Shown here one piece after another: positions 3,916-57,540 of a DNA stretch of 64,000 nucleotides. The DNA comes from Branchiostoma floridae. Taxonomy: Eukaryota; Chordata; Leptocardii; Amphioxiformes; Branchiostomatidae. The notes beneath the pieces are model-generated. The model was not told the DNA's origin, did not search any database, and saw only the letters and a program-made list of their open reading frames with translations. Positions within the stretch are counted from its first letter, which is position 1, and each line of letters starts with the position of its first letter. A program made the position numbers and the translations under genes. The stretch covers positions 1 to 64,000 of the forward strand of contig NW_023365788.1 in assembly GCF_000003815.2 (NCBI RefSeq), given 5' to 3'.

Positions 3916-4164
3916 TTTGCCACGTCTGTATATGTGTATCTGTGTAAGTCTATAGATGACCAGTATAACATGGTAATGCCTGGATTGATTGTATTGATTT
4001 AGTACGCGGATAGGTCTTGATGATACCTCAAAATGTTCAGGTATTGGTTCCACTTGCGTCTTGTGACGGTACTGCACCGGAACTTCCGGTTTTGATATCT
4101 CGTTAGAATTGTGATTTTCTGATCTATTCTCAGCGCAATGGCGCACATGCGTACAGGGGCATGT

Positions 4165-4378
4165 AGAGCTAGTTCACCTTTATCCGCGGGGTAACCTATA
4201 TCCGTTGATTTCATCAATAGGTATTAGGATGTCAAGTCGACGGATGCTGGTTTCAAAGTGCAATATCGTCAAAGTATTGTAGTCTGAAACCACCGTCGGT
4301 TGACTTCATACCCCTAAATACCCTGATTTTACAACGGATATAGGTTACCCCGCGGATAAATTTAGGTAAACTGATAGC
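4165..4378. mobile_element. MITE with AGTTCACCTTTATCCGCG ends, copy 1
   Basis: The left end AGTTCACCTTTATCCGCGGG and a degenerate inverted right end enclose two inner inverted segments (CCGTCGGTTGACTT-like). Copies are at 18577-18780 and 23517-23733. Its right end abuts the stop codon of the collagen-C4-like gene, so it forms the start of that gene's 3' UTR. Confidence 0.75.
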
Positions 4379-4379
4379 G

Positions 4380-7300
4380 CTACTTGGTGCAGACGACACA
4401 GGTGAGCTCCCTCCCTTCCACGTAGCTCGGGCACGGCAGGGACCCACAGCGGGCTTCCACCAGGTAAAACAGCGCTCCGTTCTGGTTCGCGTCCCCATCC
4501 GGTACGGTCTCCGGCTGTCCGTCCATGCAGACGTACTCCTTGGCACTGGCGTGACTGTAGTGACTCGCCATCAAGTAGCCATCGTACTCCTTGATCCAAC
4601 CGGTAGGGCAGGTGTTACGGGCGGGGATCATCAACTCACTGCCGCGGGTTGGGACGTAGCAGACCGCGCAGGGGACGTCCTGGGCAAACCCGGTAGGGAA
4701 GGAGGCGAAACTGGCGTGGTCTTGGTGATCCATCTGATACTCTGCACCGTACATGAACGCCGTCCCTTGCACGCCGTCTTGGTAATACGTCCCCCACTGA
4801 GGCTCGGTGGGCAGGCACTGGTAGTTCGTCCCACCGCCTGTCTGTGTGTGACCGGTACCCCCTGCCACACCTGATCAAGTAAAAGGAAAAACGGCATGTT
4901 TAGAAACGTCAACCTTTTTCTTATGTATCATAAATCTTAGCTTACACAGTCTCTCCGTCTGGGGCTGGTTGGGCCCCTGACCGGTGAAAGGGCTGCTCGA
5001 AGTGTGATCAGGCTATCAGAAATCTTTTGTTGGAGAGATCTGGATTAAACGGTGTGCTTTCTCTTTAAAGAAACAAATGCCAATGTTGCTTGGTGCAGAT
5101 ACCACTACAGATGCATTTATAATACGTACTACGTGACATGTAGAAATCACTTATGCTATAGCAGTTAGCCTGGCCACCACCCTCCGTAGTTATACCCCCT
5201 TTCCACTAGGACGGCGCTCTCGCGGCGCTCTCTCTGCGACCTCAAATTTGGAAGAGCGCGGTGAGAGCGCGGTGGTATCGACAAGGTCGCCATGAGAGCC
5301 CGAAGAGAGCGCGGTGGGAGCGCCATGGTCGCCATCACCTCCGCGACTGTTTTGCGCCGTGAGAGCGCCGTTGACGGCGATCCTCCGGTGATCACAGAGA
5401 GAGCGCCAAGAGAGCGCACAGCGAGCGCGGTGAGCGCCAAGAGAGCGCACAGCGAGCGCGGTGAGCGCCAAGAGAGCGCACAGCGAGCGCGATGAGCGCA
5501 ATAGGTCTCAACAGTGGTTTATGATACCAATTTATAATTAGCTAGGACGGCGCTCTCACCGCGCTCTCTCTGCGCTCTTAACTGAGGTTTGTGAAGAAGT
5601 ATATTTGACATACACAGAACCCGGAGAAATGTCGAAAATGTACAGGTGATGAACAATTAAACAAACTGAGATGGCATAAGCAAGGTTAAAAAAGCAAATG
5701 TTTATCATTTCTGAACTTATTTTTTAATTTCAATGATGACATTGGGTTTTCTTGTTCTCCATCTGTACATTTAGATTATTGGAGTCCCACTTTCAATTAA
5801 ATTGAAGTGTTTCAGTGTTGCATAATTTACACTAATAACGTGGCATGATAAAAGAAATTTATGCTGAACAAGCTACATGACAGATTTAAGAAAAAACAGC
5901 AAGACAAACGTGTATATTTCAGTCTGAGTGACTGTACAGTGACCGAAATTTGATTTGATTACAGCCTTGATTTTATACTTTGAATGTTATGTAAGACGTA
6001 AAAGGATGGCTTCAAAGATACCGAAATACACTATACGTCAAAAGATTCGTTCTTTATCTCTGAAATACGTTGAGTAATCTTTCGAATCTTTGCTAGCTCA
6101 TAAAAAGATGCTGACATTTGAGTTTTTCGTCGCGGTGAGAGCGCGCTGGGGTCGCCGGAGAGATTCCACTAGAGCAGCTTTTTCGGTCATCGCGAGGCTT
6201 TCGTCGCGCTTTGGCCAATTTTCTATCGCAGCGAGAGCGCCGTCAAGTGGAAAGGGGGCCTTACTGCTGCAGGCCAATGGATGCATGTTGAATACTGGTT
6301 GGATCTTTGGCTTTGCCACCGATAGATCTGCTTGGAGATTAGTCACTGTTTGCTCCTCGGATCGCTTGGTTACCATAAGTTACTACGGAGGTACCCTGGA
6401 GTCAATCCAGTTATGTTACCTTAAAATGGTCCGCTTCCAATGACTGAATTCCAGGCTAGCGTTCACTTATTTGAATCCAACGTATCTTAAACCAAGGATA
6501 AGAGCGCCTTGCTTAAACAAGCCTATGTACTTGATTAGAACAAACAGGCATTTCAAACAGGAATGTGCTTTTAAGAATGTAGAGATCGACTGAAGTCAAA
6601 AGCACAAAGTCCCATGCGTCACGTACAAAGGTTACTACGTAGCTAAGGCTAAGGTCACATTTGCACAAAGGGGCCCGGCCGGGCAGCTCTCGGGAACGAT
6701 AATTATAATTTGAAAAAACAACAACAACACAAAACGACCGAAAATAATTCAACAGCATGCATTGTGCATATTAAATTTTTCGTTTCCGCAAATATCCCGG
6801 CCGGGCAACGGGTAGGAAATGTGACGAAGGCTTAAGCTCAATCAAAAAGAGATTGAATGAAGAATAACGATATTGTGATTTGAATCTCACCAGAGTAAAC
6901 GGTTTCCGTGAGAGCTTCGTTGTCACACGTCGTCCTGCCCCATCGAACGTAGACGGCACCTTTTTTGTGTGAAAAAATTCTCCTATAAGGGCTCGGTCAC
7001 ATTCGCCGTACAACAGTCGTACGACCGTCGTACAATCGCATTTTTTTCTATTTGCTTTTGGACAGACGAGGACAATGTAGCACTGAAGTCAAGTTAGAAA
7101 CTAAAGCCCCGGTCACAAAGCGCGTACGATTCCTTGCGATTCCTTCCGATGCGCAGGATAAGCGCAGTGCGTCGTAAGTCGGGGGAGAATCGGAAGCAAT
7201 GGTTTAAGTATATAAAGCCGTGGTCACAAAGCGCGTAGTGCATCGTACGATGAGGTCATAAGAGCGTGCCTGCGTCAATCGCAGTGAATCATAGTAAATC

Positions 7301-9608
7301 GGGGAGCGTCGTATGGCGAAACATAGAGCTGAAATGGATTTTGAACATGTTCAAAATTTCGCTATCGTCGTAAGATTTTATTTGCCCCCATAGCAGACTT
7401 CATTACGGCAATTTTTGTCTACTGATGAGGTTATAGATTTATGATTTTTTAGCATGATGTGATGGTTTCAGTTTTCCCTGATATTGTAGATATTGACGAA
7501 AAGGGGAAATATATCAGTCGCAACTGCCACAGTCGCAACCAGAGAACAGCGCGCCCCGCACAGGTGATGCAGACAATTGTTTGATCGCTTCATACACGTG
7601 AGTTTATAATTAGATCAAATCTCAGCTCTCGTCGGTCTTGGGTCAGTTTACCATAATCGTAATAACCATGGGGACAACTCGAACATAAAGGCAGGCTCTA
7701 TGAGTCGGAAATACATATGATATAATGCTTATCATATGATTTTTGTATGATGGCATCTTTTTGTTGATAGCATATCATGATACGATCTTCGAAAGAGCCT
7801 GACACGTAGCAGGCCGAGATAACCATACCAGTACTCACGCTTGATTTGAACTTTTGCTTGTAATACTCTTGTTGTCATGGTCTTTTTTCATTTATTTTTA
7901 CAGTTAAAGATATTATAGGAAGGTATTTAACAGCTATGTCCACATTTTGTTGGTTAAAGAAGCACAAAAGCGGTCAGACGGCTATACAGAAGAGACACAA
8001 GTAAAAAATCTTGCGACGCTGGAAAAATTTTGAACACCATCCGATGCGTTGCGATGGCTTGCGATGCTTACGATTTTCTTGCGATGTACTGTGCTCATCG
8101 TACGATATGCGGAATAGTCCATCGTAAGAAATCGTACGCGCTTTGTGACCGGGGCTTTATATTCACAGTTCCACATACACAGTACAGACTGAAGGTAAAG
8201 GTAGCCTTCTCTTTTGCCTCCCCCACCGATGCCAGGTACCCATTTTACACCTGGGTGAAGTGAGGAAGGTCGTGTAAAGTGCATTTCCCAAGGGCATAAC
8301 GCCGGGGGCACGGCGGGTATACAAATCTGGACGTCAGGATTCCAAGCCGTGCATATGTAAGTACTCAGTTCAGCTGTCTCACTACTCTCCGATCCTTGTC
8401 AGAGGTGATTTTGTCACAGCTTGGAATTTCTACGACATCAAAACCGTACAGCGCGATCTACGACGCATTGTTCCATCTATATGCAAATAGCAAATATGCG
8501 GGTGATGATTAGAATACCCAAAAACTCCTGGTTAAAGCGTTCTGCCATTCTGGCGAAGGGAATAGATTGGCAAGCTTGTCTAAAAGCGAAGTCGTTGTGA
8601 ATATTATGATAATGTATGTTGAGCCTATGCAAAACGTACCGTTTCCCTTCATCATTGCGTCGATCTGCGTTTTCTGGTCCTCTAGTTGAGCTTTTTGTTC
8701 GTCAAGCTGCGCCTAAAACAAACGATTCAAAACTCACCCAACGTTCAATCAGTAAGATGTATAAATCGAAATATGAAGACTAAAAGTTTCACTGTACTAC
8801 CACAACAATCTCAAATATGATTTCTCGGTTTTATCAAGACCTATCTATAAAGCAACTATCAAGACCATTCACATAGGACTCTTCCCCAGGTTACCACACA
8901 ATAACGACAATGACAATGACAATGAAGTTTATTGCATATTCATGCCCCATTGGGGCTAAATGCAGTCAGTTTGGTATAAAAGGTAGTAAACGCAAAGTTA
9001 TATAATTTCTTATACTATAGTTTACATGCATCTTCTCTCTTCCTAAAACATTTAAATTTGTAGATGAACTTACAGATATTTTCCAGTATATCGTAATAAT
9101 AATAACAGAAGAAAGGACACACACTCACGAACGCTTCCAAAACATGACCCCCATTTTTCATGTAGCTAAATGCCTCCTGGGGCGCTACGGCACATTTGTA
9201 TTGGTATATCAGGCCCCATCTTTATCTACTCATTCGGCATATGCCCTTACAGTGGGAAATTTCTTAACAGTTCAGTCTGTACTCTGACTCAAAATGTTAG
9301 CTGTGGACATTTCGTCCCAAGACGTTCTTATTTTGCGCCAATCGAAATCAAAAGCCTTCTTCAGCCGACAGACTTGAAATTCCACCGAAAAATAACCAAG
9401 AAGGTCTAAGGCCAAGATACAACAGTCTAGTTCCGTTAGATATAAAATCTTTCGTCTCTAAAGAGCCAATGATGATGCTAAAGATACCTACCTGAAACTC
9501 TTGAAGAAGTGTGACAACGTGAACATCTCCGGACTCTAAATGTTCCGGCTGAAACTGGCCAAGGGTTCCACAGAAAAGCAGTAGGAGGCAGAACATAGAC
9601 AGTTTCAT
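4380..9608 (-). CDS. Secreted short-chain-collagen-C4-like protein (3 exons, 226 aa)
   Basis: Exons on the minus strand: 9608-9492 (39 codons), 8712-8640 (73 nt) and 4870-4380 (to TAG). All junctions are GT/AG and the phases match (0, then 1/2 rebuilding a Gly codon). Exon 1 is a signal peptide (MKLSMFCLLLLFCGTLGQ). Exon 2 is a short coiled-coil or heptad segment (LDEQKAQLEDQKTQID). Exon 3 starts with a Gly/Thr-rich linker and a globular domain with NYQCLPTEPQWG, PCAVCYVPTRGS, CPTGWIKEYDGY and a C-terminal CVVC. That arrangement resembles the non-collagenous domain of sponge short-chain collagen C4 and its many amphioxus relatives (family knowledge). No Gly-X-Y triple-helix repeat is present. 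Likely role: a secreted, coiled-coil-oligomerised extracellular protein. Intron 2 (8639-4871) is packed with transposable elements. Confidence 0.8.
5194..6260. mobile_element. 1.07-kb non-autonomous TIR element with GAGAGCGC arrays
   Basis: The ends CCCCCTTTCCACTAGGACGG (left) and its inverted, slightly diverged partner at 6225-6258 bound a unit. Near the left end are many GAGAGCGC/GCGCTCTC motifs and tandem copies of about 30 bp around 5395-5490. The centre is AT-rich and non-coding. It lies in intron 2 of the collagen-C4-like gene. Confidence 0.7.
6640..7010. repeat. GGTCACATTT / CCCGGCCGGG repeat segment
   Basis: Contains AAGGTCACATTTGCACAAAG with GGGGCCCGGCCGGG, an inverted counterpart around 6795-6830, and a similar motif near 6990. 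A related end occurs at about 23757-23790. Probably a MITE with incompletely visible borders. Confidence 0.45.
7044..8335 (-). mobile_element. SINE copy split by a TIR insertion
   Basis: The flanks (GGACAGACGAGGACAATGT at about 7060, and the block GGTACCCATTTTACACCTGG near 8235) match the intact SINE at 18056-18327. The two halves are separated by the element at 7104-8157. The tRNA-like head is degraded near 8300-8335. Confidence 0.7.
7104..8157. mobile_element. TA-inserting TIR element, AAGCCCCGGTCACAAAGCGC ends
   Basis: The left end AAGCCCCGGTCACAAAGCGC and its exact inverse at the right end are each flanked by TA. Comparison with the uninterrupted SINE at 18056-18327 supports the insertion point. 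Internal, partly degenerate copies of the terminus (about 7212) and CGTACGAT/TTGCGAT motifs are scattered. There is no transposase frame. The TA duplication is compatible with Tc1/mariner-type insertion. Confidence 0.8.
8336..8639. other. Intron 2 remainder of the collagen-C4-like gene
   Basis: Nothing beyond intron sequence is seen here. Confidence 0.5.
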
Positions 9609-10043
9609 GGTGACGGTCCTGGTACTGCGGATTGTGCGTTGCAGATCGTAAAGCTTGTCCAAACTAAAATACCGAATGCATGCGCTCTGTTGAATGTATA
9701 GAAACCTTAGTAGTTTAGCATATTTGCCAACACATTTTCTCAAGATGTTTTTTGTCTTCTTATGAAGTTTAGAATGGTGGTTAATTTCATGGTTTGTTCA
9801 AACTTCAGAACGTTAAGTGTGCTTAAGCCGAAAAAAACGAAGATTGGCACGTTTTGAATAACAAGCCATTATATACCCCCATTTTGTTGGCTAATGTGTT
9901 TAACCTAACCCGTTAGTTGGAACTTTATTCTTTGCTTTCAGGCAGGATATGTCAATAGCAACGTAACCAACATAGTTTGATCAATCCTGCAAGAACCTGT
10001 TTTTCAGATTCCTTTCTTTGACCGGCATAAGGGGGCTTTAAGC
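9609..10043. other. 5' flank of the collagen-C4-like gene
   Basis: The minus-strand promoter of the secreted gene should lie here. I see no convincing TATA box or initiator, only AT-rich sequence. Confidence 0.4.
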
Positions 10044-13320: not shown

Positions 13321-13347
13321 ATATACATTTCCCGAACTTATAGGTTA

Positions 13348-13901
13348 GGCCACAGCAAGTACATATGGATGACATCCTCTGCAGACGGCAAAAAAAGTGA
13401 GATAGGGCGAAAAAAAAAAACAAGATGGGTGAAAAAAAAAGATGGCTAAATTTTCCAAATATACGCACTAAATGTAAACAAAAAAGAATCGAAGCGACGA
13501 AACATGGTATCACAGCCTACAAGCCAGGCATTCATTTCTGTATTCACGACGTGTACTAGACTAAGTGTAGCAAAGGTGACACTAGTGTGGTAGACTGGTA
13601 TCACTTACCAACATGGCAACAACACGCATGGCTTCCATGTTGGGACCACTTTAATAACTATCTAATTAGATATATTTTGAGTTTCACTTCTATAACTACA
13701 ATCATGGCTACCTGGCTAGTGTCACTTCAACAAGTGCAACCATTAGCCTACAACACAACATATTTGCCCATTTTGGTACTTTCTCGTCATGTTGACCATC
13801 TATATCTCCGAAGGAAAAAAAAAATCTTGTTTTTTTTTCTGAAATCAGGCAAAAATTAATGCGCGCGCTGATGTCATCCATAAAATTTACTTGCTGTGGC
13901 C
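13348..13901. mobile_element. PIF/Harbinger-like MITE, copy 2
   Basis: GGCCACAGCAAGTA left end and inverted right end; flanks TTA (left) and TGA (right). The body is homologous to 2045-2577 and 51099-51685 (for example CACTAGTGTGGTAGACTGGT). Confidence 0.85.
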
Positions 13902-13946
13902 TGACTACGGTAAAGAGGGTTCACTCCTGACTCCTGAGGAAATATA

Positions 13947-15335: not shown

Positions 15336-18300
15336 ATGTCGAGCTACACTGTGATGAAAGGCCCCCTGGCGGAAAAGTTTGAAGGTGCAGGTCACCACGA
15401 CCATGGAGATGCCACGTCCCAGGTAAGGCTGAGGTCACTTCGATTTTATTATCAAAGCATGGACTCCAACAGAGCATCAATACTCTGGAAATATATTGTA
15501 ATAATTGGAAACTAACTGTTTATGTGTCTAAAACGAAAATTATCATTTTATCTAAAGGTGCTACAAAGAAAATGTCAAAAGAATTCTATATTTATAATAA
15601 TGTAATAGAACTATTAGAAGTCACAGACAGTTACACCTACCTTGGTATACCTCTTACGTCCTCAGGTAACTTTAAAACGGCTAGAAATTTTCTAAAACCA
15701 AAGCTATGAGAGCTATATTCAAATTAAGAGTCATTGTACGAGAAAACCAGGCAAAACCAGGCAGAGGCCGGAAGATGGGGGTCGGCCAAATCGACTCAAA
15801 CTTTTTATGTACATGTGTGATAGGTATGTGGAACTATGAACAGCCCTATAGTTAACACCCTCCAGCTATTTTTCATTATAGCGTTCTGGGACCCCCCCCC
15901 CCCTCAGAGACCCTCTAAAATCCATCTATCTATATGTATGATTCTACATTCTTTACTGGGAGGTTTGACTTCTTTTTTGGAGGCAGTGGCTGATGAAAAG
16001 TCACACGTCTTTAATGAATAGTGGGTTGCTCTGTGATTTTAACAGGAATGCAGTTTTTTGGAGGTCATATACGGTGTATGTTTGATCATTTTATAGCTGC
16101 TTTGTACAATTTATAGTGTGGTCAAAAACTTTTTAACGTTTTTTTAAGGGATAAAAATTAAAAGATTACCAAAGCAGAATGGCCTAAACTGTGAACAAGT
16201 CTCTAAAGACATACGAACTACCGAAAATAGTTTCATCAGGTTGGTAGAATATAGGATATAGGAGAATTCTTTATATTACGAGGGGGGATACAAGCTTAGC
16301 CAGGTTTGGGATTGTTTTCTCACCGCAAAAGCGCCACCTACATCGGCTACATATAGCGGTGAGAAGCAGAACTCCAGTTAGAAGCTCTGACGAAGGTGTC
16401 TGAGAGACATAGAAACGTAAGCAATGTAAGTACCTGCTAGCTGGTTGTGTAATAAGAATTCTCGTATATCCAACATGCGAACTTGTCCAGGTGAGCATAA
16501 TCATGTTGACTAAACATGTATTAATATTAATATTCCTCCTCAGATGTTGCTGGAGGAATGGAACACCACGTGGCCTGTGAGAATAGTCTGGAATGGACAT
16601 CTTGATGAAGAGACGTACATCGTCGGGAGTTGGGATTCTTGGAAGAGCTGGAATAAAGTCACCAAAATGTAAGATCATGTCACAGTTATCATCATCAGGA
16701 TATATATGCTTATGTCTCAATTACACCTGTGCCCGTCAGGGATGTAGCCCCGACCGGGCTCCGTAGCCACAAATTTGTCCAGGTGGACTGCCGGATACCG
16801 GGGGTAACCCTCGGTGTTTCCTGCGGGTAGTCATGGCGCCTATTTGTTACCGGGTCCCGGTTTCATTTTAAATCAGATCTGACTTAATATATAAGTTCAA
16901 CCCGGTGCCCTAGAGCTACAATATGTCCACAAGGCCACGTAGGGGTCACGCACGAAAGTGCAAAAAAAAATAAAAAAGCCCGTGAACTACCCGGCAGGGC
17001 CCCTTTTTTCATTAACTCACAGGGCATACCGATCCCTTCGAATGTCGGACACTTCGGCACATGTACACTTCGTTCCCCTGGCAATCAGGACATTTCGGCC
17101 CCAAGCCGAGTACACTTCGGCCCCAAGCCAAGGACACTTCGGCCCTGGGTCCAGTCCACAAAATACAAAGTACAACCTGCTAGTTGAAATTGTCTGACAA
17201 AGAAACGCGGCCTCTACTGAGAATAATCTTGATTTTACAGGAGAGCGTGTTGCTTGTTTCAGATGTAACTGGTAGGTAAGTGTGCTTGCTATGTTTCAAG
17301 ACTTATTTATTTGTTTCAAGACTTAATGCTCAATATATTCTACCGTTGCCTTTCATATATCTTTTCGATTAATTTGTACACTGCATAGCATGCCCACGCA
17401 CATAAGAACTAGCGGGGCCGAAGTGTCCTCTGAGCCAGGGCCGAAGTGTCCTCGGCCTGGGGCCGAAGTGTCCTGGACTTGGGGCCGAAATGTCCGGGCC
17501 GAAGTGTCCATGTGCCGAACTGTCCTGATACCATCCCTCTGTTCTTAGCCTGTAGTCCACCAGGACTTGTAATTTGGTGAAAGTGTCTTCTTTGTAACAA
17601 ATGGAAGAGTCTGTAATTTTCACACGATTAGAAAAGAGATGTATGGTGCAAACATGTCAAAATGTACCCAAATCTAGTCTCTACCAGACTCCGGATCGCT
17701 GGAAAAATCGTAGAAATGGAACAAATAGAGGAGTAAGCCGGCCAGGGGAATATAACCGGCCAGGGAACAGCACGCGATCCACGGATCGCGAGCTGGGCCC
17801 TGGCCGGTTATATTCCTCTCTATTTGTTCCATTTCTACGATTTTCCAGCGATCCGGAGTCTGGTAGAGACTACCCAAATCCAGCTTGTGTATTTCTAGTT
17901 TTTGCAGTGACCGTGACGAGGAGTCATACAAGGTTGAATTGGAACTCCCGGCTGGACTTTATGAATATAGATACAGGACCGCGAGTGGAAGTTGGTTCCA
18001 CAACCAGGACATGGTAAATACATGGTCATTATTGATTCTAACTTGTAGTCTATTTTTTTTTTTCTATTTTGCTTTTTGGACAGACGAGGACAATGTGGCA
18101 CTGCACTCGAGTTTGAAACTTATATCAACAGTGCCACATACACGGTACAGAAAGAAGGTAAAGGTAGTCTTTTACCTCCCCGACCGAAGTCAGGTACCCA
18201 TTTTTACACCTGGGTGAAGTGAGGAAGTGCCTTTCCCAAGGACACAACGTCGGCGGCACGGTGGGGATCGAACTAAGGACCTTTAGATTCCGAGCCGAAC

Positions 18301-27732: not shown

Positions 27733-27832
27733 NNNNNNNNNNNNNNNNNNNNNNNNNNNNNNNNNNNNNNNNNNNNNNNNNNNNNNNNNNNNNNNNNNNN
27801 NNNNNNNNNNNNNNNNNNNNNNNNNNNNNNNN
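27733..27832. other. Assembly gap (100 N)
   Basis: Exactly 100 N flanked by a TG tract and a poly-G run: a standard-size placeholder gap, probably caused by the simple repeat. Its true length is unknown. Confidence 0.99.
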
Positions 27833-37416: not shown

Positions 37417-40400
37417 GTGAGCATCTTTTAATGATTGAATGTAGGAAATTGTATATATCAGGGCTCTACTACTCTAGCCAGCTCGAAATCTTTTTCCGTC
37501 AGCCAATTTCCATTGCTGCAAAAACACTATTCCAGGACTTAGAGAGACTGAACTGAGGCCTTGAAAAACGTTGTTTTAATGAGATTATTGTATGCGAAAG
37601 GGTGCAGATACACATTGTCAAAAATCATAACAATAGCAAAACAAACAGTGTGTGGCTTTTACGGCTGTGGACGGCGTCCCCAAGCCACCTGTAGCTTCCA
37701 CCAAGGATTTTTGTCTGTCAAGGTTAACGGATTGGTTTTAAAGTTTTCTGTCACAAGCAGCAAATTTCTGTCAATTGACGGGAAAACGTATGCTAGCTAG
37801 ATCCCTCGTACCGGTACAGAAAATTCAGGTCCAGGTCTGGTCAGGTCCAGAGGATGAGGTCCAGGTCCAGACCTAAACCTGGACCTGATTATCTGTGAAA
37901 ACTTGTGAATGGGTAAAACTAAGAACAATGGTCCATTTCACTACAATAAAATCTGTTTTGTGAAGTATCCAACTCCCACTGGCATTTTGAAATCCTAATA
38001 CGTGAAAAATGCTAACTGACTCAGTCTGTTATCTTTAGTTAGTGTTTCCTTAATTCCTTATAGATAATAAATTTGTCCAGGAAAACTTACTGAATTACAT
38101 AGCTATTGTCATAGGTATACTTCAAAGAAAGTAAACGCAGGGCATTTTCATTATCAGTGTTCATCTGTTAGGTATTCAAACACAATCCCAAAATTTTAGT
38201 TTTTATAGCATCTGGAAATAACTGCAATAAAATTTTAAAAACATTATAATTTATCACTAAAATATATAACAAACACACTAAATGCATGTGCAACACAAAA
38301 TAAGAAAGTTGGTTTTTATTACCACTTTCCGCATCTCTTTGTTTTGAGTATCAATGATGTTGTGTTTTTGGCGATGCCTCAGGGGCTAGCCTTATAGTAT
38401 TCTTTATCTTCATCATTTAGGAATGGTGGATTCTGGGCCTGGGGTGCATAGCCCTGCTCATCTCTAGTGCATCCAACATGATGGCGCCACTGTTCTTCAG
38501 TTTTGTGGTGGACGCAGCTCTAACCAGCATAGGTAACTTAAGCAAGAACTTCGCCCTCAATAACTAAGTAAACACTAAAACCATGTGTATTGTTAATTTT
38601 CTGGCAGCAAAAGTTGCCCCTCAAAATGCAGGAAATGGCATTTGAAACTTTTTCCGGGGGTTCATGCCCCAGGACCCCCCTAGAAGGGTCATGCGATTTC
38701 GGCGCTCGCCTCGGTGATACGCAAAATTTTTACCCCCACAACCAAAAAATGGTGCCCCCGCCTCTGCTGTAGTATATCTCATCTTTCCATCAATTTAGAT
38801 GTTAACTGTTGAGGCACTTCGGAAGATCTGACAACCAGTTTTCTCCACCCTCCTTGGTTTTCTATTTCTTCTCAATGTTTTAACTGTACTAGTAATACTA
38901 ATAGTATGATGCCTATCCATTCTCTTACAATTTATCCTCCTATCTTTCCCATTGCCTTATTCTTTTTCCCTGGATTATCAGGTTCCTAAATGACTGCAAT
39001 TGCATGATGACATTTATGAATATATTCCCCAAAGATTTGACTTTGGTTTAAAAATTGAGTGAAGAAATGAATGAATAAAAGAATGATTGAATGAATGACT
39101 AAGCCAACAAATGAATGAATGATACCACAGATATATTTCAAGATTACCAGATAATTTTTGTGTTTTGTCTAAGTATGTGTACTGTAATTCACTTTGTCTT
39201 CTTGGTACCAAACTTTCACGGTCTGAGAAAATTTAACTTGTTCTCGGAACTAAATGTTCACGGCGAACAAATTATTTGTTATTGTGACCAAGACGAATTA
39301 TTTGTTATCAGTAATGATAAGTACTTTTTTTGTTACAGTCATCACCGTGAAAACCGTGAACATAATTTAAAGTAGATAGAAAAAATCAGGAATTACAGTA
39401 CTTACTTTTTGTCAACCTTCTCACCCACAGACAAAGTGAACCACACAGTGCTGGTCCTGTTGCTCATTTACATCGGAGGCGCGATCGCCGCGTTCTTCCG
39501 TTCCTGGCTCTTCACGCTGGCCGGGATGCGTTTCGTGGCCAGACTTCGGGAGGAATTGTTCGCAGCCATCGTTAAGAACGAGATCGCTTTCTTTGACACT
39601 ACAAGGTACCCGTATCTGTATTGTGTATTATGTATAGCCTCCTTTGGCATAACACACCAGCTTCTGTATCTGTATCAGATTCTGTATATAGCATGGCTCT
39701 TTGGTGTAACACACTAGCTTCGCAGGTGTTCTATAAGATGAGTTCCACTGTACGCTAGCCTAACTAAAACCGCACCACTAGTGGCCGGCCCTACACTAGC
39801 TGCCGTCCTACCCTCTCGGGGAGGGGGTCATTAACCCCAGCCAACGAGAAATTGTGTAAACACACTCAGGCTATACTGTAGGCTAGTACGATAGATTTTA
39901 ATTTCAAAGTTTTGACTTTGTTGATACAGGGAATATTTTATGATGTCCTCATCTGTCTTTTTTCTAATAGTAAAAAATACCTGCCGACAATCTTGATGAC
40001 CAACTAAAGACAGAAACTAAGACCAAGTGTTTGTGAAGTTTGTCATGACATACTTTATTGCAGGACTGGAGAGTTGACCAACCGCCTGGCTTCAGACACT
40101 GGTGTGGTGCAGAACTCTGTTACTGTAAGTCTATATTTATGCAATATAGAATAACTTTATAGCAGAAGTACCTAACATAGTTCTATTCAAAAGAAAACAA
40201 GGCAAGCAACTGTTCTGAATTTTCTGAAGAATCAGACATTTCAGGAATCATTTGTTTATCTTTCATCAGACTCAGAGACAGAGGTTGATTCTAGGCCGAT
40301 ATTCACAATAGCATCTCTCCAGACTTGTTTTTCCATTGCTACTGTGACGTGTACATGTAGATTAGTCTTCTTTGGTTCCATTCACAAGATACTGTAAATG

Positions 40401-43400
40401 CAGAAACTTTCGCAGTGGTTTAATGTTTGCGATTTTTGCAGTGGCTGCTTCACCGTGAACTTTAAAAACCACTGCAAACATTTTAAGAGACTACGGTGCA
40501 TGGTGCTCCCGCGAACTTAAAACCACCGCGAAAAATCCTTTTTCCTTTTCCACAAAATTAAATGCATTTACAGCAGTCTCATCTCAACTATTTCCATGAG
40601 GTCACCCTCCCACTGAGACTACTGTTCCATTTACATGGCTGCCCCCCTCCCCACAGGTGAACATCTCCATGTTGTTCCGGTACCTGCTCCAGATTGTCGG
40701 TTCCCTGTCAATCATGTTCGTCCTGAGCGCCAAGCTGACGGGCGTGCTGCTCTCCTGTGTCCCCATCGTGTCTATCGGGGCCATGGTCTATGGTAAGAAC
40801 ATGTTGACATATTTGAACTCCCAGTATTCCTGTGTTTTTTTTCGGTGCAAAATAATGCAAACTCGCTACTTGGTCATATGTATAGAGTGCCAAGCTGATG
40901 GCCAGTGAAGGGTGTGCCATTGTAATATGTGGTCTACAGTAAGAATACGTCAACTTTTTTTAACAACGGAAGTATTCCTGCTTGGTACCAATGGTAAGGT
41001 AACTTTGTTCCTACCAGGAAGTTTGCAGACTATGAACTAGAACTGCCTGTGTGAAAATTTGCCCGTCCCGGACTAGTCCGGACCGGCATGAACCGTCAGT
41101 TCGAACCATGCAATAGTCCGAGGGTCGGACTGGTCGGTCGGACGGGACGGACGCTCGACAGTTCGCAGAACGGTTCGGACGGCCATAAAGGGTCCAGATT
41201 GGCCGCTTGGACTAGCCCGGACTACGTCCCGGACTGGTCCCGGACGGCATGGTTCGAACGCTTTCGGGCGGCGGCCTGGAGCGGGCCGTTCGAACGGTTC
41301 GAGCCGGTACGGCTCCGCCCGGGCCGGACGGCCGAACGGGCGGTTCCCATAGCAACAAAGCGATCCGAACCGTCTGGGGGCGTGCAGAGCACCGCGGGGC
41401 GCCGGTTCGGACGTCTGCGGACGTCTGCGGACGTCTGCGAACCACCAATTTACATGGCAACTGTACCTCCCAAACACCCGTGAAATGCGTAAAATCGTGC
41501 TGTTGTGAGGTGGAAATCGCTGCCCAAACAGTTCGGACGGTCTGAACCGCCGGAATGCCGTCACAAAATAGAAAGAATTTGAATGCAATTCATCCCTCTG
41601 CCGCCAGCGCTCCTATAGACAAAATATTAATGACGGCTTGAAGTTACTAGTACAGAATGACACCAGCCGCAAGACAAGCAATGTAAATCACATGTGCCCT
41701 CACTTTGACGTTATGTGCGTGCGGAGTCCCAGGAAACATTTGATTGCCCGCACAAACCATGTACAAAGCGTAAGTAATGGATTTCTGATGTCTTTCCGAC
41801 TGAAGCGTGGTTACCAAACATGTGGTGGAGACACTATCACTAATATATGATATACATTCAAGTCCATAATCTAAAAGATTCATTTATAAACATCATTGAA
41901 TGCCCTAATATATTCATGCCAACGCTAGGCACGTTACGCACCCAGCGGCGGCGAGGGTTCAGTGACCCCATCTCAAACGTAAACAAGAAGACGATCCTAT
42001 GAAGAAGCCAAACATTTTGTTGGTGTGTGTTGAACTTTATTGTATTTTGTTGAAAGAAAGTTGTATCTAAATATTGAATGGCAATATATGTTAATCTAGT
42101 GCCACAAAATAGTATTCTACGTGTCTAAAATAAGACTAGTTTTGATATAGGTGCTGGCCCCCATACGTGAATTGAACTCTCCCACACTTGATTGAAGCCT
42201 CCCGGTCCTTTGGGACAGCCGCCCGACAAGTGCGCACATGTCTATAACTCGTTGTTTGTTGTTTATTTTACGTTCCATGTGTTAATTTTTGGCACAGTTT
42301 GCACATCCATTGACAGGAATACCACTAAGAATGATGTCGTCATTATACCCATTTCCTTTGTGTTTCTTGCCTTTTTTCACGAGCAAGTTATTCAAAGACG
42401 GGAAAATACGATCCAGATATCAATTTGCGAGCCAGTGGCTAGGCCACACCCACACAGCGCGAAACTTTAGGTATAGAGGCGTGCCGCTGTCCATCATCGC
42501 GTGGCGACCGACAAAATAATTAGCAACCATATCTCCGCTAGCTGGGTGTCATGCTGTCCGTATTATAAAACGTCTGCACAATTATTATTGGAATCTTTCG
42601 TCAGTAAATTTACTTTGCGCACTTGTAAGCGACTTTTGACAAGACTGGCCGGTGTTCCCGTAAAGCTTTCCTTCTGTCCTAATCCCAGCAAAACTGGTCT
42701 CCGGGGACAGCCGCCTACCAGACCGATTCGTAGGGCAGTAATCAAAATGTCACACTACAACGGGTCTCCAATTTCTGGAAGGGTGGCAAAATCACCAACG
42801 TCCGGCCGCACCTTTGAGCTTCGGCCGTAAGTCTAGAATCTACTTAAATTATTCAGCAAAGCAAATAGGATGTAAAATCTGCTTGTCTCTAGTGTATAGT
42901 TATTGTGCATGTGATTTCATTAACTTTTGTAAAATCAACGATATTCAGAAGGCTTCAGAAGTACCACGAGTGTTATCATACAATGTTGATTGAATGAGTA
43001 GAGATTAAAAGACGTCACCCTAGAGGATTATTGTTAACCTACGCCATAGACGTTTCAACTTTCACATCGCTTGATAGATTTTTATGCCCGTCAAAGGCAC
43101 ATGTGTGAATAGCAGGCGAAATCTTTACTTGCGGCACAAGTAAATAAACGCTTTTTGAAAAGTTGGTAAGGAGGAACAATATTAAACGGGGAGGATTATT
43201 GTCGAGGAAATTCCGCTCGTGAAGACATGGATATAACGTCCTTGGGAGGAAGTTACTACATGTAGTATGCCATGGTGAGGAGAAGTAATTCTATGGAACG
43301 TTGATATTAATATTTTTCAGTTGTAGTTGTACTCTACTCTCTCTACTCTATATGAAGCATGGATATGGACACCTGACGTGCTAATTCAGATTACGCTTAG

Positions 43401-46400
43401 TCTACAGTTTAGTCTTTGTTCTGTGCGTTTAGTTGTTACACAACATTGGGCATGTACACAACCAAGATACGCTACTGAAGTACAGAGAAGAAAACAACTT
43501 CGCTGGAATTTCACAGGTTTTATCCCCAGGGGCAGGCAGGCGAGTTTCTAAAGCTTGACTCCCTGCTGACAATAATCCCGATAGCCCGTCCGAACGGTTC
43601 AAACGGTTCGGGATTTACTGTGGCGTGTCCAGAGATCCGCCTGGCTCCGACATGTCCGACCCGTGAGAACGTTGCCCCCAACCAGGGAGGTTTTATCAAA
43701 CCCGGGACATTGAGGAAACAACTTCGTTACCTTCGTCATGGATTTAAAATTACCTCCGATCAGTGGTGTATGCGGGAATTGTAAGACGATCATAATCACA
43801 TCATTATCTTCGCCGAGAAGGTTATATTTATGATATAATTTGCAACGGTACGTGGAAACATGACTTCCTCTTTGCTGCAACAAGTGAAAATTACGTCATC
43901 ATACTACTGTGTTTCCACGAAAATGGGCGCTGAAACAACACTGTGCATAATACAGCCCACAGGAGTCCCAGTAAGTGCGGAAAAAATACATGGATACTTC
44001 AGTTAGCCAGGATTTTGACTGTGCTGTTGATAATTTCACATCTAACACACTTGGTAACACAGCTTAACGATGTAAAACAGTTTCTTACCAGTTCAGTCTT
44101 GAACAAGAAGGGATGTTTGTATTCCAGTCCGTTCGTATTCCACGGAAGTTTCGGCAGTCGGTTGGAACAGCATCAGAACATAATTCCACACAAATTGTTT
44201 GTGTTGCTAGTCCTTTTCCATCTCTCCATGGCAGTTTGATGCATCCTGACCCGAAACGACAACGTACAAACCCCTCACGCGACACCTCTTCCAACTTATC
44301 CATGATAGTCTGTACATTTAGCCTTAGTATAAGACTAAAAAGCGGAAAAATAACACAGGACATCAGGAAACGGTTTACTGATGAGTTTTCAATTTGAAAT
44401 GACCGCGACGCACGCGCAATGCTCATGTTATCCCCAGGGGCAGACAGGGGAGTCTTTCAAGCTTGACACCCTGCTGACAATAATCGTGATAGCCGGTCCG
44501 AACGTTCAGAACGGTTCGGGAGACACTGTTGCGTGTCCTGAGATCCGCCTGTCCCTGGCCCGATCCAGGGCAGTTCTCTAAGTCTAACCTTTCATATTAC
44601 GAAAGATGAAGCGTCCAAATTTCTCAGGGGAACATGACACCGACCCGTAGATTGTGCGTCACCATCCCCAACCCCTATCACTACTGAATGATTTGCGACG
44701 CACGGGTAGTGAATTGTCTCTCCTTCTGTAAGTGTAACGTGGATGCAGCCATCCTGCCATCCACGGCGTTTCTTTATCCGGTCGTCGCTTCGACTAACGA
44801 GTAATATATTTTCGAATTTATTGTACATTTGTGCTCCTCAAGCTAATTACAGGTCAATATGATAAAGTAGTTCTAACCCTTCTAACAAGAAAATAAGTCA
44901 TTGATTATTCATGTAAAATGGTGGCGTTAGATGTTCGGCTAACCGTTACCCGTGCCCTGTTTTGGATACTGTACTCCAGCGTGACACAGCACTGCACTTG
45001 TTTTAAGTCCCACTTTCTTCATATAATGTCAAGGGGAATATTACTGGTCAAAATCAACAAGTTTTAGATAATTCAGAGGACCAAAACTCGATTGAAGTCT
45101 CGCTGCAAAGTTACCGGTAGGCAGGTCGTCCAACAGGTGCTCCAACTGGTACGACTCGCAAAAAAATTCCTCTTTGGCCAAAGCCTGCGCTTTGACTCCA
45201 AACGGTGGTGGAAATTTTAGAAAGTGAGAAACATTTAAAATATATTGCACTTCACAAATCATGTTAGGTATTGTCCACAAGGCCGGACGTCATGAAAGGT
45301 AATAAAGATACTAAATACGTTTTCAAAATTGTCTCCCGTATCATTGCACATTTGGACAGAATCGCCGCTTGGTACCATGACAATCATTGGAAACGTAGAG
45401 CTACTCAATGTCGTCCTATTTGTAAAGCGCCAGGGACAATTATTTAATCCTAGGGTAGAAAGATTAGTTCTACAGAGAACAATGGTGGTCTAGAGATCTG
45501 TTAAACTTTTCTCCGCCCGTTTTAACGCCGTGCAAGCATGATCAATCCCGGGGTGTGTGGTGCACCGGTGAAAACTTGTGCCAATGGTGACCTACAATAG
45601 TATTGTCTTTTATTCTTCTTATAGTACTTTGCTGCACTGCGTTTGGAAGACAACGGTTCTATAGGCGCGGGCAATGTAGTTAGCAAATCAAACAGTGCAG
45701 CAGAGTGGAGAATGTAGCGTTCGTGTGAGTTAGAAACGAAATACGGAGTGCCGAATTGTAATTCGCCATGCCACTGCGTGACTATCCACAAGGTATCTGC
45801 TGTTACGTTTTTCTCATTTACCGCTAGAGAAAAATAAAGAGACAAACAGAAACAGGACTAAAACATATTCATTCTTCATAAGAACAGATTTCGTAACAAA
45901 AACTTATTCATTATGTTCCTATAGATATTCATATGTATATTAAGTTATAGACCTGACAAAGTCGCTTTACTTTTGTCGTGTCAACAAAGATTTTATATGC
46001 TGCATGCACGGCATTGGTGTACGAGATGCGATGGAAAGACTGGTACGTCGAGAGGGTAAACATGTAGGTGTGATCCGCGCACTCAACGCCGCATGGGCGT
46101 GATAGACAATCCAAACTCCGCTGCAAGTCAGAGCAAGCCGACTTCATTAGACCGCCCGGCATGCAGGACCATAAACAGGCATTTGTCGCAGTTCTCCCAG
46201 ACTTATTTTCCCGTCCATAAAACTCGGACAGGGCCCACAACCTAAATTACGTCGCAAAATGTGCCAATGTAACTGCGAGAATTTTGGCATTGTCTGAATC
46301 ACTTATATTTATCGTAAAATTTCCCCTTTGTCACATTTCTGCGAATGTTTAAAAGTTCTTATTGACGACCAGGGGGGTCGTGGTTGAACAGCGTGTTTTG

Positions 46401-49400
46401 GCTCGGCATATTCGGATGAATTTCCAAGAAACTTGATAGTGGGGCATAGGATTTCAGTTGCAGTTTCTTACAACCAATCATGTGGCTCATTATGTGCAGT
46501 GAAAATCGACGTCTCCGGCTCATTTCGTACAAATCGTAGCGATTGGCTAGCCAGTAAATAGATTGTCTCACACTGTACAAATCAAACGGCTGCCGCCAGC
46601 ATGGCGCCATGGCAACAGCCAATGTGTGGCGGGAAGACCACCAGAGCGCCGCTCACGTGCGCCTCACAGGCGGGATGTCAATCAACCCGCTGTTTATTTC
46701 CGCGGGTGCGGCCTGGAACTGGGATGGCCGTATTTGCCAAAATCATCTCGCGCACGGAACAGTCGGCTTTCCGAGCAACGCTCGCATATGCAGAAAAACT
46801 GCACTGAGTAGCGGAGCAGACTCTTCAAAGGGTGACTCAACACAGTGTAAGCTGGAAATTGGAAAATGAACAGCATTTTATAAGTGTATGTAAACTTTAC
46901 TAGAACTTGTAGAAGACCCATCAGTTCGTTTTGCTACTCTATTGAGTATCGTATTATACTCTACTCTTCACTTCAGATAGCCGTGCGTGGTGACTATATA
47001 AATTAATGAACGAATATGTACAAGAAAACACGTCACCCATTCATTAGTCGCGGCCAAAATAGTATAGAAGAAAAGTTGTAGATGTGAAGGTAGAAAAATC
47101 TCATTTTAAATTTTATTTTCATAGTATTGTTCAGGCGATAGTGCAACGCTATTACTATTAGTGTTCGCCCGCTCTGGCTGTTGCCCCGCAATAATGGACG
47201 TAATGCATGCCTCTAACAATGTCTAATAGTCTTACCTACGGACTTTATTGCTCTTCTGGTCGCTGCGCTTAGTGTACGGAAGGGGGCGCTGTCGCACGGC
47301 TTCATACAATTTAGGGACTTAGACAAAATTTGGCCGGGCGGCGGCAATTTTTTCTAAGTGTTTTACGGCGCCCGAAGCGTCCGGCGGTCCTGAACTGCCG
47401 AACGTGCTGAACCACTTAATGACGGTTCACCGCCCGGCGCTCGGACCGGCAGCCTCGCGGGCCGGACGGCTTTCACGTAGGCGGACCGTGTGGACTGCCC
47501 TTGGACCGGTCCGAACCGTTCGGTGCGAGTTGATTTTCACACAGGTAGAACTAGAACTAGAGTAGGAATCGATTCCAGGGTCGAGCTCAACTCAGACAAT
47601 TTTTAATGACTTGTATTCGTTATGTTGGATGGTGGCATAAAGCCGGCAGCCCCATATTTGAGAGGGCTCGGGCATACATGTAACCCATAAGCATCAAATC
47701 TCTGCATGTATTATAAAAGGGACCCAACTCACTTATTGAGAAGAGTAGGGATTGACCCAACATGCTTAAAAAGCTTAACACACAAGCCATAGAGACTGCA
47801 TTGCATAAATATCCGAGGTTAAACTCACGTTCATGTTCAAAGCTATTTCTAAACACCTAAATTTACAATTATTATTAAACATTGCCAGGATCCCCCCATG
47901 CAGACCCTCTTTATAGGGAGACTGTATTGCATGAATATCCAAGGTTATACTCAAGGTCATGTTCAAAGCCAATTGTAAACACCTAAATTTACAATTATTA
48001 TTAAACATTGCCAGGATCCCCCCATGCAGACCCTCTTTGAAATTCATCCTATCTAAAACTCCTATAGGAAAGTATGTCCAGGGCATCAGGAAAGCCTTCC
48101 AGGACGAGCTGGCAGCAGCCAGCACCGTAGCAGAGGAGTCTATCTCCAGTATCCGGACGGTACGAATGTTTTCTGGGGAAGAGAAGAGCAAGAGGGACTA
48201 CAACGTCAGCGTGGACAAGAGCTACGGCTACGGCAAGAAACTGGCGCTGGCTGGCGGAGGGTTCAACGGCATTGTGGGAGTGGTGGCGTTTGTAAGAAAA
48301 ATGTTTGATTTGTTAATCCTGCAATCTTGTATACGATAGATTGTTAAAAACCGTTGTTATTGCAGTCAACCTTAAAAACTTTTTAAAAAGTCTTTACGTA
48401 ACTCAGCAAGGCAGACAATAATCAGGGCTTTGAAACATTGGTTGTTCTATCATTGTAATGTATGATCACAAACTGAGAGCATTCCTGGGATAGTGCATGT
48501 GTCACATAAATTTCCAACTGTCGTGTTACAGTACAAGTCATCTTCGATCCCAATTGGTTCTCGCACAGCCTGATTGAAAATTCTTTAACATAAAAATCGT
48601 ACGTTGGCCTAAGACTTCATAATTGTAATGATGACTGCTACTTCCTGCAGTCAAGTGGCGCAAGAATGCAGTTGCAGTATCCTCAAGTCTTTATCCTTCT
48701 GTTCTCTGATATTTATTTTTGATAAGATTGAAAAAGACTGATATTTGTTTGATGTATGAATGTGTGTTCCACTGATATAGGGAGCCATAGTGCTGGTTCT
48801 GTGGTACGGAGCCAAACTGGTCATCATGGAGCAGGAGCATCCCGGCACAGGGATCACTATCGGCACCCTCACAGGTCAGCACTATCACTGTAGATTACTG
48901 CAGTTAAGTTTGCAGGCAAAAGTTTCTGCTTTTACAGTACTTTGATGCCCGTAACACAGTCAAAAAGCATTTTTGGACGCCTAATTCAAAAATTGCCGGG
49001 AACTTGAGCAGATTGAGCAAATGTCTTTAGAGCTAAATACCTTCGAAGTTGTCAGCCAACCAATATTACTGTAACTGTTGTGTAACTGTGGCATTATGTG
49101 ATTGTTTTCAGGCCATTGTATTCAATGAGTGTATCACACCCCTTATGTAATTAGTGTCCAAACTGCTGCAGCAGTGGGAAATTTGAAAGCTTCATACTCT
49201 TTAAATTATTGTGTTACAAAAAAGTTTCAGTTCAACACTATATGTTGAATAATATCTCTTCAGAAGCGGTGCTCTTCTTGTAGGTCATTGATGAACGTGT
49301 TTTTCTTTCCTCAGGTTTCATGATGTACACCCTGAATGTGGCCATGGCTTTTGCCTTCATCTCCAGTCTGTATGGGGACTTTATGCAGGTGGGTACATGT

Positions 49401-52400
49401 TGGATGCCCTCAAATCACGTATCTCCTAATTCTTGCCTCTGTACATGAGTGTGCAGGGAGTCTATTTGTTTGTTTATTTGAACCTTTATTTATTCATGAA
49501 AGCTCAAATTGGCCTGCAAGCCGCTTTTCATTGAGGTCATGATCATGAGGGAAAAGGCATTAGTGTCACTGACAGACAAAGCATATTTTTTCGGTGTGTC
49601 TGTTTTTGATGGTGCGTGTCCGTAGTTAATTGAATGTAGATAAAGTATAAAGTGAGTGGGAAGATGACAGCAATGGGCAGGAAGTTCAGTTCAGAGTTGA
49701 TAGAAATAGACTAAACTGTGCATTCCACATGAATGACTAACAGTAGTGTCTTCTACGTACTGTTTATCATGTCTCAGATGATGAGAAACTTAAATTATTT
49801 CAGAGGCATAGAGAGCGAGATCTTCGAATTCTTGTATGTAATAATGTCAGGGCTCGAAATAGTTTTTTCTGCATACCTGCACTGGTGCACGTAACACTGA
49901 AAATTACCTGCACCAGACAAATTATACCCACACTACTCTGAATTTATGAAGTATGGATCATACTAAAATTGTTCAGGAACCATTGCTCTTTTTTCTTCTA
50001 TACTTTATACGTAACAGTCAATGCAGCTAATGACAATCCACATACACCTACATCATATGACATTTATGTATGAAACCCAGCACATGGACCAGTGCAGGTT
50101 TGGTGTAGGTAGACACCAGAAATACCTGCACATCTCCAATTTTACCTGCACTAACCTGCATATGCAGGTAGTATTTCGAATGTGCCCTGAATGTGCATAC
50201 AGTGTATTAAGTGTTGTAACATTTATTTCGTGTTTTTTTTTTGCACAATATCTAAGACATATTGAACACAAATTTTCTGCTCCCTGTCAAGGCCTTGGGA
50301 GCCTCTGAACGTATCTTTGACCTGCTGGACAGGAAGGCAGAAGTGAACATGTCTGGTGGGAAGGTTTTGGATGGACTGCATGGAGGTTAGCACGTTTACA
50401 CTTACGCTTACACTTACGCTTACACTTATGCTTACACTTACGCTTACACTTACGCTTACACTTACACTTACACTTACGCTTACACTTACACTTACACTTA
50501 CACTTACGCTTACACTTACACTTACGCTTACGCTAGACTTGTAAAGCTGCGCTCCCACCGCACTTGTGTCAAGCTTCCGTCACTGCGGGGTTCGAAAGAT
50601 GCTTAACGAATTTCAGAAATAAAGAATGAATTTTCTTTATTTTTGTGTATTTTGTCGTCTTCTAAGTATAAAAAATTGGAGAAAATAACATAACAGTGAC
50701 GCAGTGAATGAACCCCGCAGTGACGCAAGCTTGACACAAGTGCGGTGGGAGCGCACCTTTACTCACATAATGAATAGCTTAAAATATCAATTAAAAACAG
50801 AATGAATGACAAATCCAAATATATTATCTATTATTCATCATACATTCTGTTTTTGATCATTGATTGTTTCAGAACATTTTTTCTTATCTGATATTTTGTT
50901 CAGCATTTATGATCATCGACAATTTAAAGTAAAGAAATTTTTTATAAATGTCCTGTTGTTTTTTAAACCTTTTTCAGGGATTCTGTTCAAAAATGTGTCA
51001 TTCACTTATCCATCCAGACCTGACTCTGAAGTTCTGAAGGTGAGAGAGCTACTTTACTTTGGTCATGATATGGAATCACATTTTTTGATAACAATTAAGG
51101 CCACAGCAAGTAAATTTTATGGATGACATCCTCTGCAGACTGCAAAAATAGTGAGATAGGGCAAAAAAAAAACAAGATGGGTAAAAAAAAACAAGATGGC
51201 TAAATTTTCAAAAAAGACACCATAAATGTTTAAGAAGAGTTAAAGTGACAAAACATGGTAGTACTGACGACAAATCATTCCTGTATTAAAGAAGTGAACT
51301 TATCTAGTGTAGTAAAAGTGATACTAGTGTGGTAGACTGGTAATCTCGAACCAGATCCACGGTGCGTAATGTATAGTATCAAACTTCCTGTAGGTATCAC
51401 TTACCAAGTTGGCAACTTAACTTATGACTTCCATAGTGGTGCCACTTTTCCAACTATCCAGCTGGTTTCACTTCTATAACAGTTACTACAATCATGGCTA
51501 CCTCGCTAATGTCACTCCTACAAGTACAATCATTAGGCTCCAACACAACATGCTTTCCCATTTTGGTACTTTCTTGTCACGTTGACCATCTCCGAAGAAG
51601 AAAAAAAATCTTGTTTTTTTTTCTGAAATCAGGCAAAAATTAATGAGCGCACGGATGTCATCCATAAAATTTACTTGCTGTGGCCTAAAGGTAATAGTCA
51701 GTGGGACATTTGCTGGGACCTTTGACCTTATTTCCTGTCAATGTCCCTAGCTGCCTTGCATGAGGAAATAACACAATATTGTACAGTGACTGTATTTGAA
51801 CCACTTAAACGTGATTGGAACCTTCGGATCCAAGAAACATCATTATGTACATGTATGGTTGATCCTGCTGTTCTTTTCCGCACCCCAGGAAGTGTCCTTC
51901 GCTGTAGAGCCAGGTAAGGTGGTGGCTCTGGTGGGACCCTCGGGTGGAGGCAAGTCCACCATCGTCAGTCTCATTGAGCGATTCTACGACCCCAATTCAG
52001 GAACAATCTTGCTGGGTGAGTTTTGAGGACTGTTGTACTCTTTTAGATTGTAAGGTTTTCAGTTGTGTGTAACTCATGTCTGAGATGTCCTCCCCTTTTG
52101 CTTGTTGAAATGATCTTCTTTAAAGCATAACAGCATTGAAACAGCCTAACGCTAATTTTTTTACCTCAGACATGATTCTTACTTCTCTACTTCATAGCAG
52201 TTTTATTAAATTCTTTTTCAAGATTAACGGTGTCATTTACTCCATATTTCATGTTCATACTCCATTTTCATGTCCATACTCAATTCAACCTTAAAGTTTA
52301 TTCTTGATACGATTATAGAAAATTATAATTCTGCACATTTGGAAGTTTGAGGGAAAATAGTTCATCTTACTTTCTCTATTTCAGGTAACATCCATTGGCA

Positions 52401-57198: not shown

Positions 57199-57540
57199 CA
57201 GGGCTCTGGCCAGCTCGAAATTTTTTTCCGTCAGCCAATTCCCATTGTCACGAAAACACTATTCCAGGAGTTAGAGAGACTGAACTGAGACTTTGAAAAA
57301 CGGGTTTTTAATGAGATTATCGTATGCGAAAGGGCACCGACACACATTGTCAACAATCATAACAATAGCAAAACAAACAGTGTGTGGCTTTTACGGCCGT
57401 GGACGGCGTCCCCAAGCCGCCTGTAGCTTCCACCAAGGATTTTTATCCGTCAAGGTTGACGGATTGGTTTTAAAATTTTTCCGTCACACGCAGCAAATTT
57501 CCGTCAATTGACGGAAAAACGGACGTTGGCTAGAGCCCTG
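57199..57540. repeat. CAGGGCTCTGGCCAGCTCGAAA repeat, copy 2
   Basis: Complete copy with inverted ends CAGGGCTCT-GGCC and GGC-TAGAGCCCTG. Homologous to 37459-37804 throughout; the internal frame [20 protein letters not shown] is preserved. Confidence 0.85.

Follow-up and report, generated by a model that had tools for sequence, protein, structure and literature searches.

Mariner elements insert specifically at TA, and the maize En/Spm element carries 13-bp terminal inverted repeats (TIRs) with arrays of subterminal repeats. The En/Spm plan is also that of the element considered here, a 6.5-kb unit at positions 41046-47545 of a 64,000-nucleotide stretch of the Branchiostoma floridae genome (contig NW_023365788.1, positions 1 to 64,000; hereafter the window). 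Maize Ds2 and Ds-like elements (hAT) are likewise non-autonomous, with an 11-bp TIR, subterminal AAACGG hexamers that bind transposase and an interior replaced by unrelated filler (PMC3260210), and Hermes, also hAT, combines terminal repeats with dispersed subterminal sites in quasi-palindromic pairs (PMC10368747). The 2-bp target duplication found here is shared with Tc1/mariner (PMC3706591) and lies within the 2-5 bp of EnSpm/CACTA (PMC12730594). By its inverted ends, dispersed copies, target duplication and lack of a detected transposase, the element is a non-autonomous TIR (class II) DNA transposon. It very probably represents a young, large (~6.5 kb) family of ~45 copies that is moved in trans. 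The likeness to Ac/Ds and Hermes, which is an analogy, is one of mode of action and not of membership. The following features were found at the ends, in the interior and at the flanks.

41046-41058, plus strand: left terminal inverted repeat CCTGTGTGAAAAT; 20/20 copies compared share their first 19 bases
47533-47545, minus strand: right terminal inverted repeat, an exact inverted match, with right-end copies genome-wide
41059-41560, no strand: left subterminal array of CGGACGG, CCGAAC and GTTCGG sites, defined by motif counts; probable transposase binding sites
47330-47532, no strand: right subterminal array; CCGAACCGTTCGG lies within it at 47511-47523
43520-43643, plus strand: internal 124-bp direct repeat, copy 1, with a CCGAAC...GTTCGG pair at 43590 and 43606
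44428-44551, plus strand: internal 124-bp direct repeat, copy 2 (87%), with a CCGAAC...GTTCGG pair at 44498 and 44514
41044-41045, no strand: left flanking dinucleotide TG; the target was probably TA with its last base changed, in a GAACTA repeat context
47546-47547, no strand: right flanking dinucleotide TA, from flank comparison

The terminal repeats that a first-pass annotation had placed at these limits are exact, with CCTGTGTGAAAAT matching 13/13 at 41046-41058 (plus strand) and 47533-47545 (minus strand). The left 550 bp have a GC content of 61% and the right 260 bp one of 60%, compared with 43% for the core. The ends hold 8 CCGAAC/GTTCGG sites (shuffle mean 1.20) and 11 CGGACG/CGTCCG sites (shuffle mean 1.68), counts reached in 0/500 shuffles, and sites of the types CCGAAC, CGGACG, GGACGG and CCGGAC were each much more frequent than in shuffled versions of these ends (counts reached in 0/500). 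There was no clear enrichment of 8-bp palindromes in the ends (7 against a mean of 4.0; 45/500 shuffles reach 7). The annotation had described hundreds of bases of palindromes at both ends; motif-dense, GC-rich ends were confirmed, while palindrome enrichment was not, and the right array is short, with only ~200-260 bp.

Copies were sought in 513,431,437 bp on 431 contigs. The exact 13-mer of the end has 68 + 70 occurrences and its reversed control 10 + 8; many of the first 100 places face each other in pairs at a distance of 6.3-6.9 kb. For a 20-mer from the right end, searched with one mismatch permitted, there were 46 places, one of them a doubled end beside N in copy L030, and 0 for its reversed control. 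With the left 200 bp as query, the 40 places scored of 44 candidates had 93-100% identity, and every match ran from position 1 to either 198 or 200. Among the first 20 paired-end copies fetched, 15 were 6392-6607 bp long. The 19 other copies that were aligned (L030 was set aside for its N and doubled end) are 92.0-99.3% identical over their whole length to the copy in the window. With ~45 copies, the case for a transposon delimited by these TIRs is strong, and the genome count contradicts the opposite outcome, a single copy with no related termini elsewhere. Other single 13-mer places were rejected as relatives: of those fetched, 11 do not resemble the element and have no more than one motif in 600 bp.

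The 20 aligned copies diverge from their nearest neighbours by 1.03% on average, and the family therefore appears young. Family copies are mosaics: the window copy differs from copy L022 by ~1-2% up to 44545 and by 3-14% beyond (44546-47545), which points to exchange between subfamilies. As a transposon, the element is an ordinary large passenger without transposase. For a non-autonomous DNA element without evident coding capacity, 6.5 kb, kept uniform across ~45 copies, is a large size.

The target stagger is 2 bp. Both flanks were read for 39 insertions, and the dinucleotide is identical in 24/39, with ~2.4 expected at 1/16. The identical pairs are TT (8), AA (5), TG (3), AT (2), CT (2) and one each of TA, CA, TC and CC. 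Longer identity is rare: 0 insertions at 3 bp, 1 at 4 bp (AATT) and 0 at 8 bp. The AATT case (L076/L077, C218:114167-120917) has this sequence at both flanks, a possible 4-bp duplication. Over 23 sites, with strands combined and L030, L031 and L039 left out of the count, the targets show a weakly palindromic preference, A-n-C-[T-A]-G-n-T. An 8-bp duplication with a 7/8 match had been proposed for the window element, whose flanks are TAGAACTG and TAGAACTA. The match is present, yet it is a coincidence of the target, since the insertion lies in a GAACTA tandem repeat that mimics a longer duplication, and none of the 39 insertions matches at 8 bp. In the window, 386 perfect 13-bp inverted pairs lie within 10 kb of each other, and 3 of these, this element included, have flanking 8-mers that match in at least 7/8 positions; 60 shuffled windows gave 0 such pairs, so that judged by the window only, the duplication seemed significant. 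A tandem-repeat target can thus fake an 8-bp duplication and lead to placement in the wrong superfamily.

Because that duplication is wrong, the pointer that it gave to hAT, P, Merlin or Zisupton falls. For hAT, an 8-bp duplication is found in 0/39 insertions and a 2-bp one in 24/39; six element frames gave no Pfam match to the hAT dimerisation domain, which is not expected in a non-autonomous copy. Ds duplicates 8 bp, against 2 bp here, and the 6.5-kb interior is uniform across the copies of this family, unlike that of Ds. Hermes targets an 8-bp nTnnnnAn, whereas this family has a 2-bp stagger. Merlin, which has an 8-9 bp duplication and a 5'-GG terminus (PMC8101967), was rejected given the CC terminus and 2-bp duplication. 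Zisupton/KDZ was also rejected, as neither the 8-bp duplication (39 insertions) nor PF18758 (six frames) was found. EnSpm/CACTA elements end in CA..TG in most cases, in contrast to CC..GG in 20 copies here, and PlavakaA, with a 2-bp duplication, has TGT..ACA termini, while those found here are CCTGTG..CACAGG. Tc1/mariner does not fit either: the targets include TT, AA, TG, AT, CT and others besides TA, and 23/24 identical pairs are not TA. A literature search found neither CCTGTGTGAAAAT nor a paper describing the family; Repbase was outside this search, so the family may already be catalogued.

The remaining 15/39 flank pairs differ, 12 at one base and 3 at both. The single-base mismatches are TA/CA (5), TG/TA (4) and one each of TA/GA, TT/TA and CA/TA; TA/CA and TG/TA are one event viewed from opposite strands. 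TA is present in all 12/12 of them, against 1/24 identical pairs (Fisher p = 1e-8, with the three double mismatches excluded), and when TA is taken as the target, the differing base touches the element in 11/12 (binomial p = 0.006); both p-values are descriptive, since the hypothesis was formed on part of the same data. In the window and L036 insertions, tandem-repeat targets show that the original dinucleotide was TA. Later mutation cannot explain the 12 TA mismatches, because only 0.8-1.6 mismatches are expected among 39 pairs at the observed divergence. Three other readings were considered. A base of the donor flank may ride along and be ligated at one end of TA targets; this is the best fit of the three to the position of the changed base, and we prefer it, tentatively, as a reading with a real but minority chance of being right. 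Secondly, a 2-bp overlap may nearly pair with the target, with G-T tolerated. That one or other of these, overlap pairing or donor-base ligation, acts on TA targets and TG/CA-flanked donors, so that a mismatch of one base persists at one end, we consider unlikely. Thirdly, insertions flanked by TA/TA may be re-excised, so that those with a changed flank or another dinucleotide remain. This requires no new chemistry and agrees with TA/TA being only 1 of 13 TA-flanked insertions, against 23 identical pairs at other dinucleotides, but it requires many lost insertions, given how few mismatches mutation supplies, and we regard it as rather doubtful. The double mismatches TT/AA, CA/TT and GT/AG fall outside the TA rule; assembly error is possible at L031, which has a run of N, and at L030, which has N.

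The proposed mechanism is modelled on Ac/Ds and Hermes, where subterminal sites of this kind are bound (PMC3260210, PMC10368747): a transposase encoded elsewhere would bind both the 13-bp TIRs and the CCGAAC/GGACGG sites of the subterminal arrays. The same trans-acting enzyme would excise the element and reinsert it, cutting weakly palindromic sites of the type AnC[TA]GnT with a stagger of 2 bp. Where the site is TA, the base next to one end of the element would usually differ from that of the target, as in 11/12 single-base mismatches. The flank mismatches, nearly all at TA and adjacent to the element, would then be a readable trace of transposase cutting and joining. The TA mismatch pattern may be the part of this family that is new; if the overlap or ligation behaviour is true, recombinase-like overlap behaviour in a TIR element would represent an integration chemistry new to the DNA transposons of animals.

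The interior had been thought to contain exons with strong splice sites and possibly a transposase. Three minus-strand frames are relevant.

45525-45857, minus strand: exon frame from the first-pass annotation; stops in 14/19 other copies
45932-46246, minus strand: Cys-rich exon frame from the same source; stops in 16/19 other copies
44088-44456, minus strand: frame open in 19/19 other copies; ratio of non-synonymous to synonymous change (dN/dS) 1.14 against L034; not supported as coding

The comparison of stops and dN/dS dropped insertions relative to the window, so that frameshifts in other copies are not all visible in it. Among the 19 other copies no long frame is under clear purifying selection, and dN/dS scatters around 1. 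Frame 44088-44456 differs from L034 by 4 synonymous and 15 non-synonymous changes, and the plus-strand frame 42477-42827 has a dN/dS of 0.84 and a stop in 1/19. Acceptor and donor scores of the proposed exons, from generic matrices, are 1.6 and 2.0 (46241-45953), 9.1 and 4.1 (45823-45596) and 8.2 and 8.9 (44334-44089). The best exon-like interval of the element scores 17.1, a value that 33/100 locally shuffled elements reach or exceed. There are 21 spliceable open intervals, against 16.0 +/- 6.1 in 100 shuffles, of which 26 reach 21, at a cut-off of 14.5 chosen after the splice scores were known and with the 100 N of the window (27733-27832) read as A. The exon scores are thus at shuffle level, and stops interrupt the frames of the first two proposed exons in 16/19 and 14/19 other copies. 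The Fickett mean is 0.751 for 58 element frames and 0.773 for 449 frames elsewhere. Six element frames gave 0 Pfam matches at E <= 1, whereas the same read-through method recovers the ABC exons of the host gene. Rfam gave no match. No transposase inside the element was borne out by Pfam, coding signal or clear purifying selection, and there are stops in other copies. Since stops, dN/dS, Fickett, splice-interval and Pfam results all lack a coding signal, the family is best read as non-autonomous, with no sign of coding.

Some matches of these frames to other databases were set aside. Those of the six read-through frames to PDB are taken as chance: two frames had none, three had one each (E 2.1, 0.21 and 0.058) and the sixth had 63 (best E 0.025), of which the best 60 are all picornavirus-type capsid or polyprotein chains, in a stretch with four stops. 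In viral_contigs, three frames gave 19, 21 and 6 pattern stretches, none confirmed as relatives, and a 16-mer gave 11 stretches, with a longest shared run of 18 bases, which were rejected too.

Several points weigh against a non-autonomous transposon. Some frames have low dN/dS on few changes (43714-43830: 3 synonymous, 1 non-synonymous), and the power of dN/dS is limited because the copies are young. Some element frames are in the top 2-9% by amino-acid composition, mostly in the GC-rich ends, and open frames are slightly denser in the element (8.9 per kb, 7.8 outside). No transposase and no autonomous partner turned up, and the search found no empty allele of the window insertion (0 matches). 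An autonomous element, its transposase spread over many exons and diverged beyond the reach of Pfam, would agree with the uniform copy length of ~6.5 kb and with the good splice scores of the frame 44088-44456 that is open in all copies; in one nematode, Zisupton transposases are split over 18-31 exons (PMC9297572). With this frame at a dN/dS above 1, no other under clear purifying selection, exon-like intervals near the shuffled number and Pfam empty, we consider such an element quite improbable.

A gene-capturing element, with an interior of host gene fragments, had also been suggested. It might seem to be favored by a promoter-like cluster at 46474-46619, where three CCAAT/ATTGG boxes are followed by CACGTG and CCATGGCAAC (46607-46659), and by the 516 first-look candidates that 45860-46760 gave as a genome query, of which 40 were scored. 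However, the window has 6 other CCAAT clusters of a similar kind, neither Pfam nor PDB yielded a credible match, and the 82 matches listed for 45860-46760 would also fit family copies. With 42300-42900 as query there were 44 candidates; the 40 that were scored yielded 42 matches, with only family copies among them. Gene capture is not supported, and we consider it very unlikely.

The non-autonomous element lies inside an intron of an ABC-transporter gene, as predicted from an upstream exon at 40657-40792 (open frame and splice score) and from ABC_membrane and ABC_tran exons that read-through Pfam places at 48064 and further downstream. The CpG observed/expected ratio is 0.93-1.22 in seven 1-kb bins (41001-48000), against 0.36-0.90 in eleven neighbouring bins; undepleted CpG is as expected of a recent arrival. 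The host stretch 4001-9690 reaches 1.09, level with the element, and high CpG alone is not diagnostic.

Other repeats were found in the window. A 198-bp MITE-like element (17675-17872) has long perfect inverted ends TAGTCTCTACCAG... and an 8-bp flanking repeat CCCAAATC (8/8). At 50578-50725 there is an inverted pair CGTCACTGCGGGG whose apparent 8-bp flanks belong to a longer inverted repeat, so that it is a hairpin and not a target duplication. A 0.55-kb family of inverted repeats that ends (T)TAGGCCACAGCAAGTA has three copies (2042-2580, 13347-13902 and 51096-51688), and a 335-bp pair, 90% alike, is located at 37472-37806 and 57204-57539.

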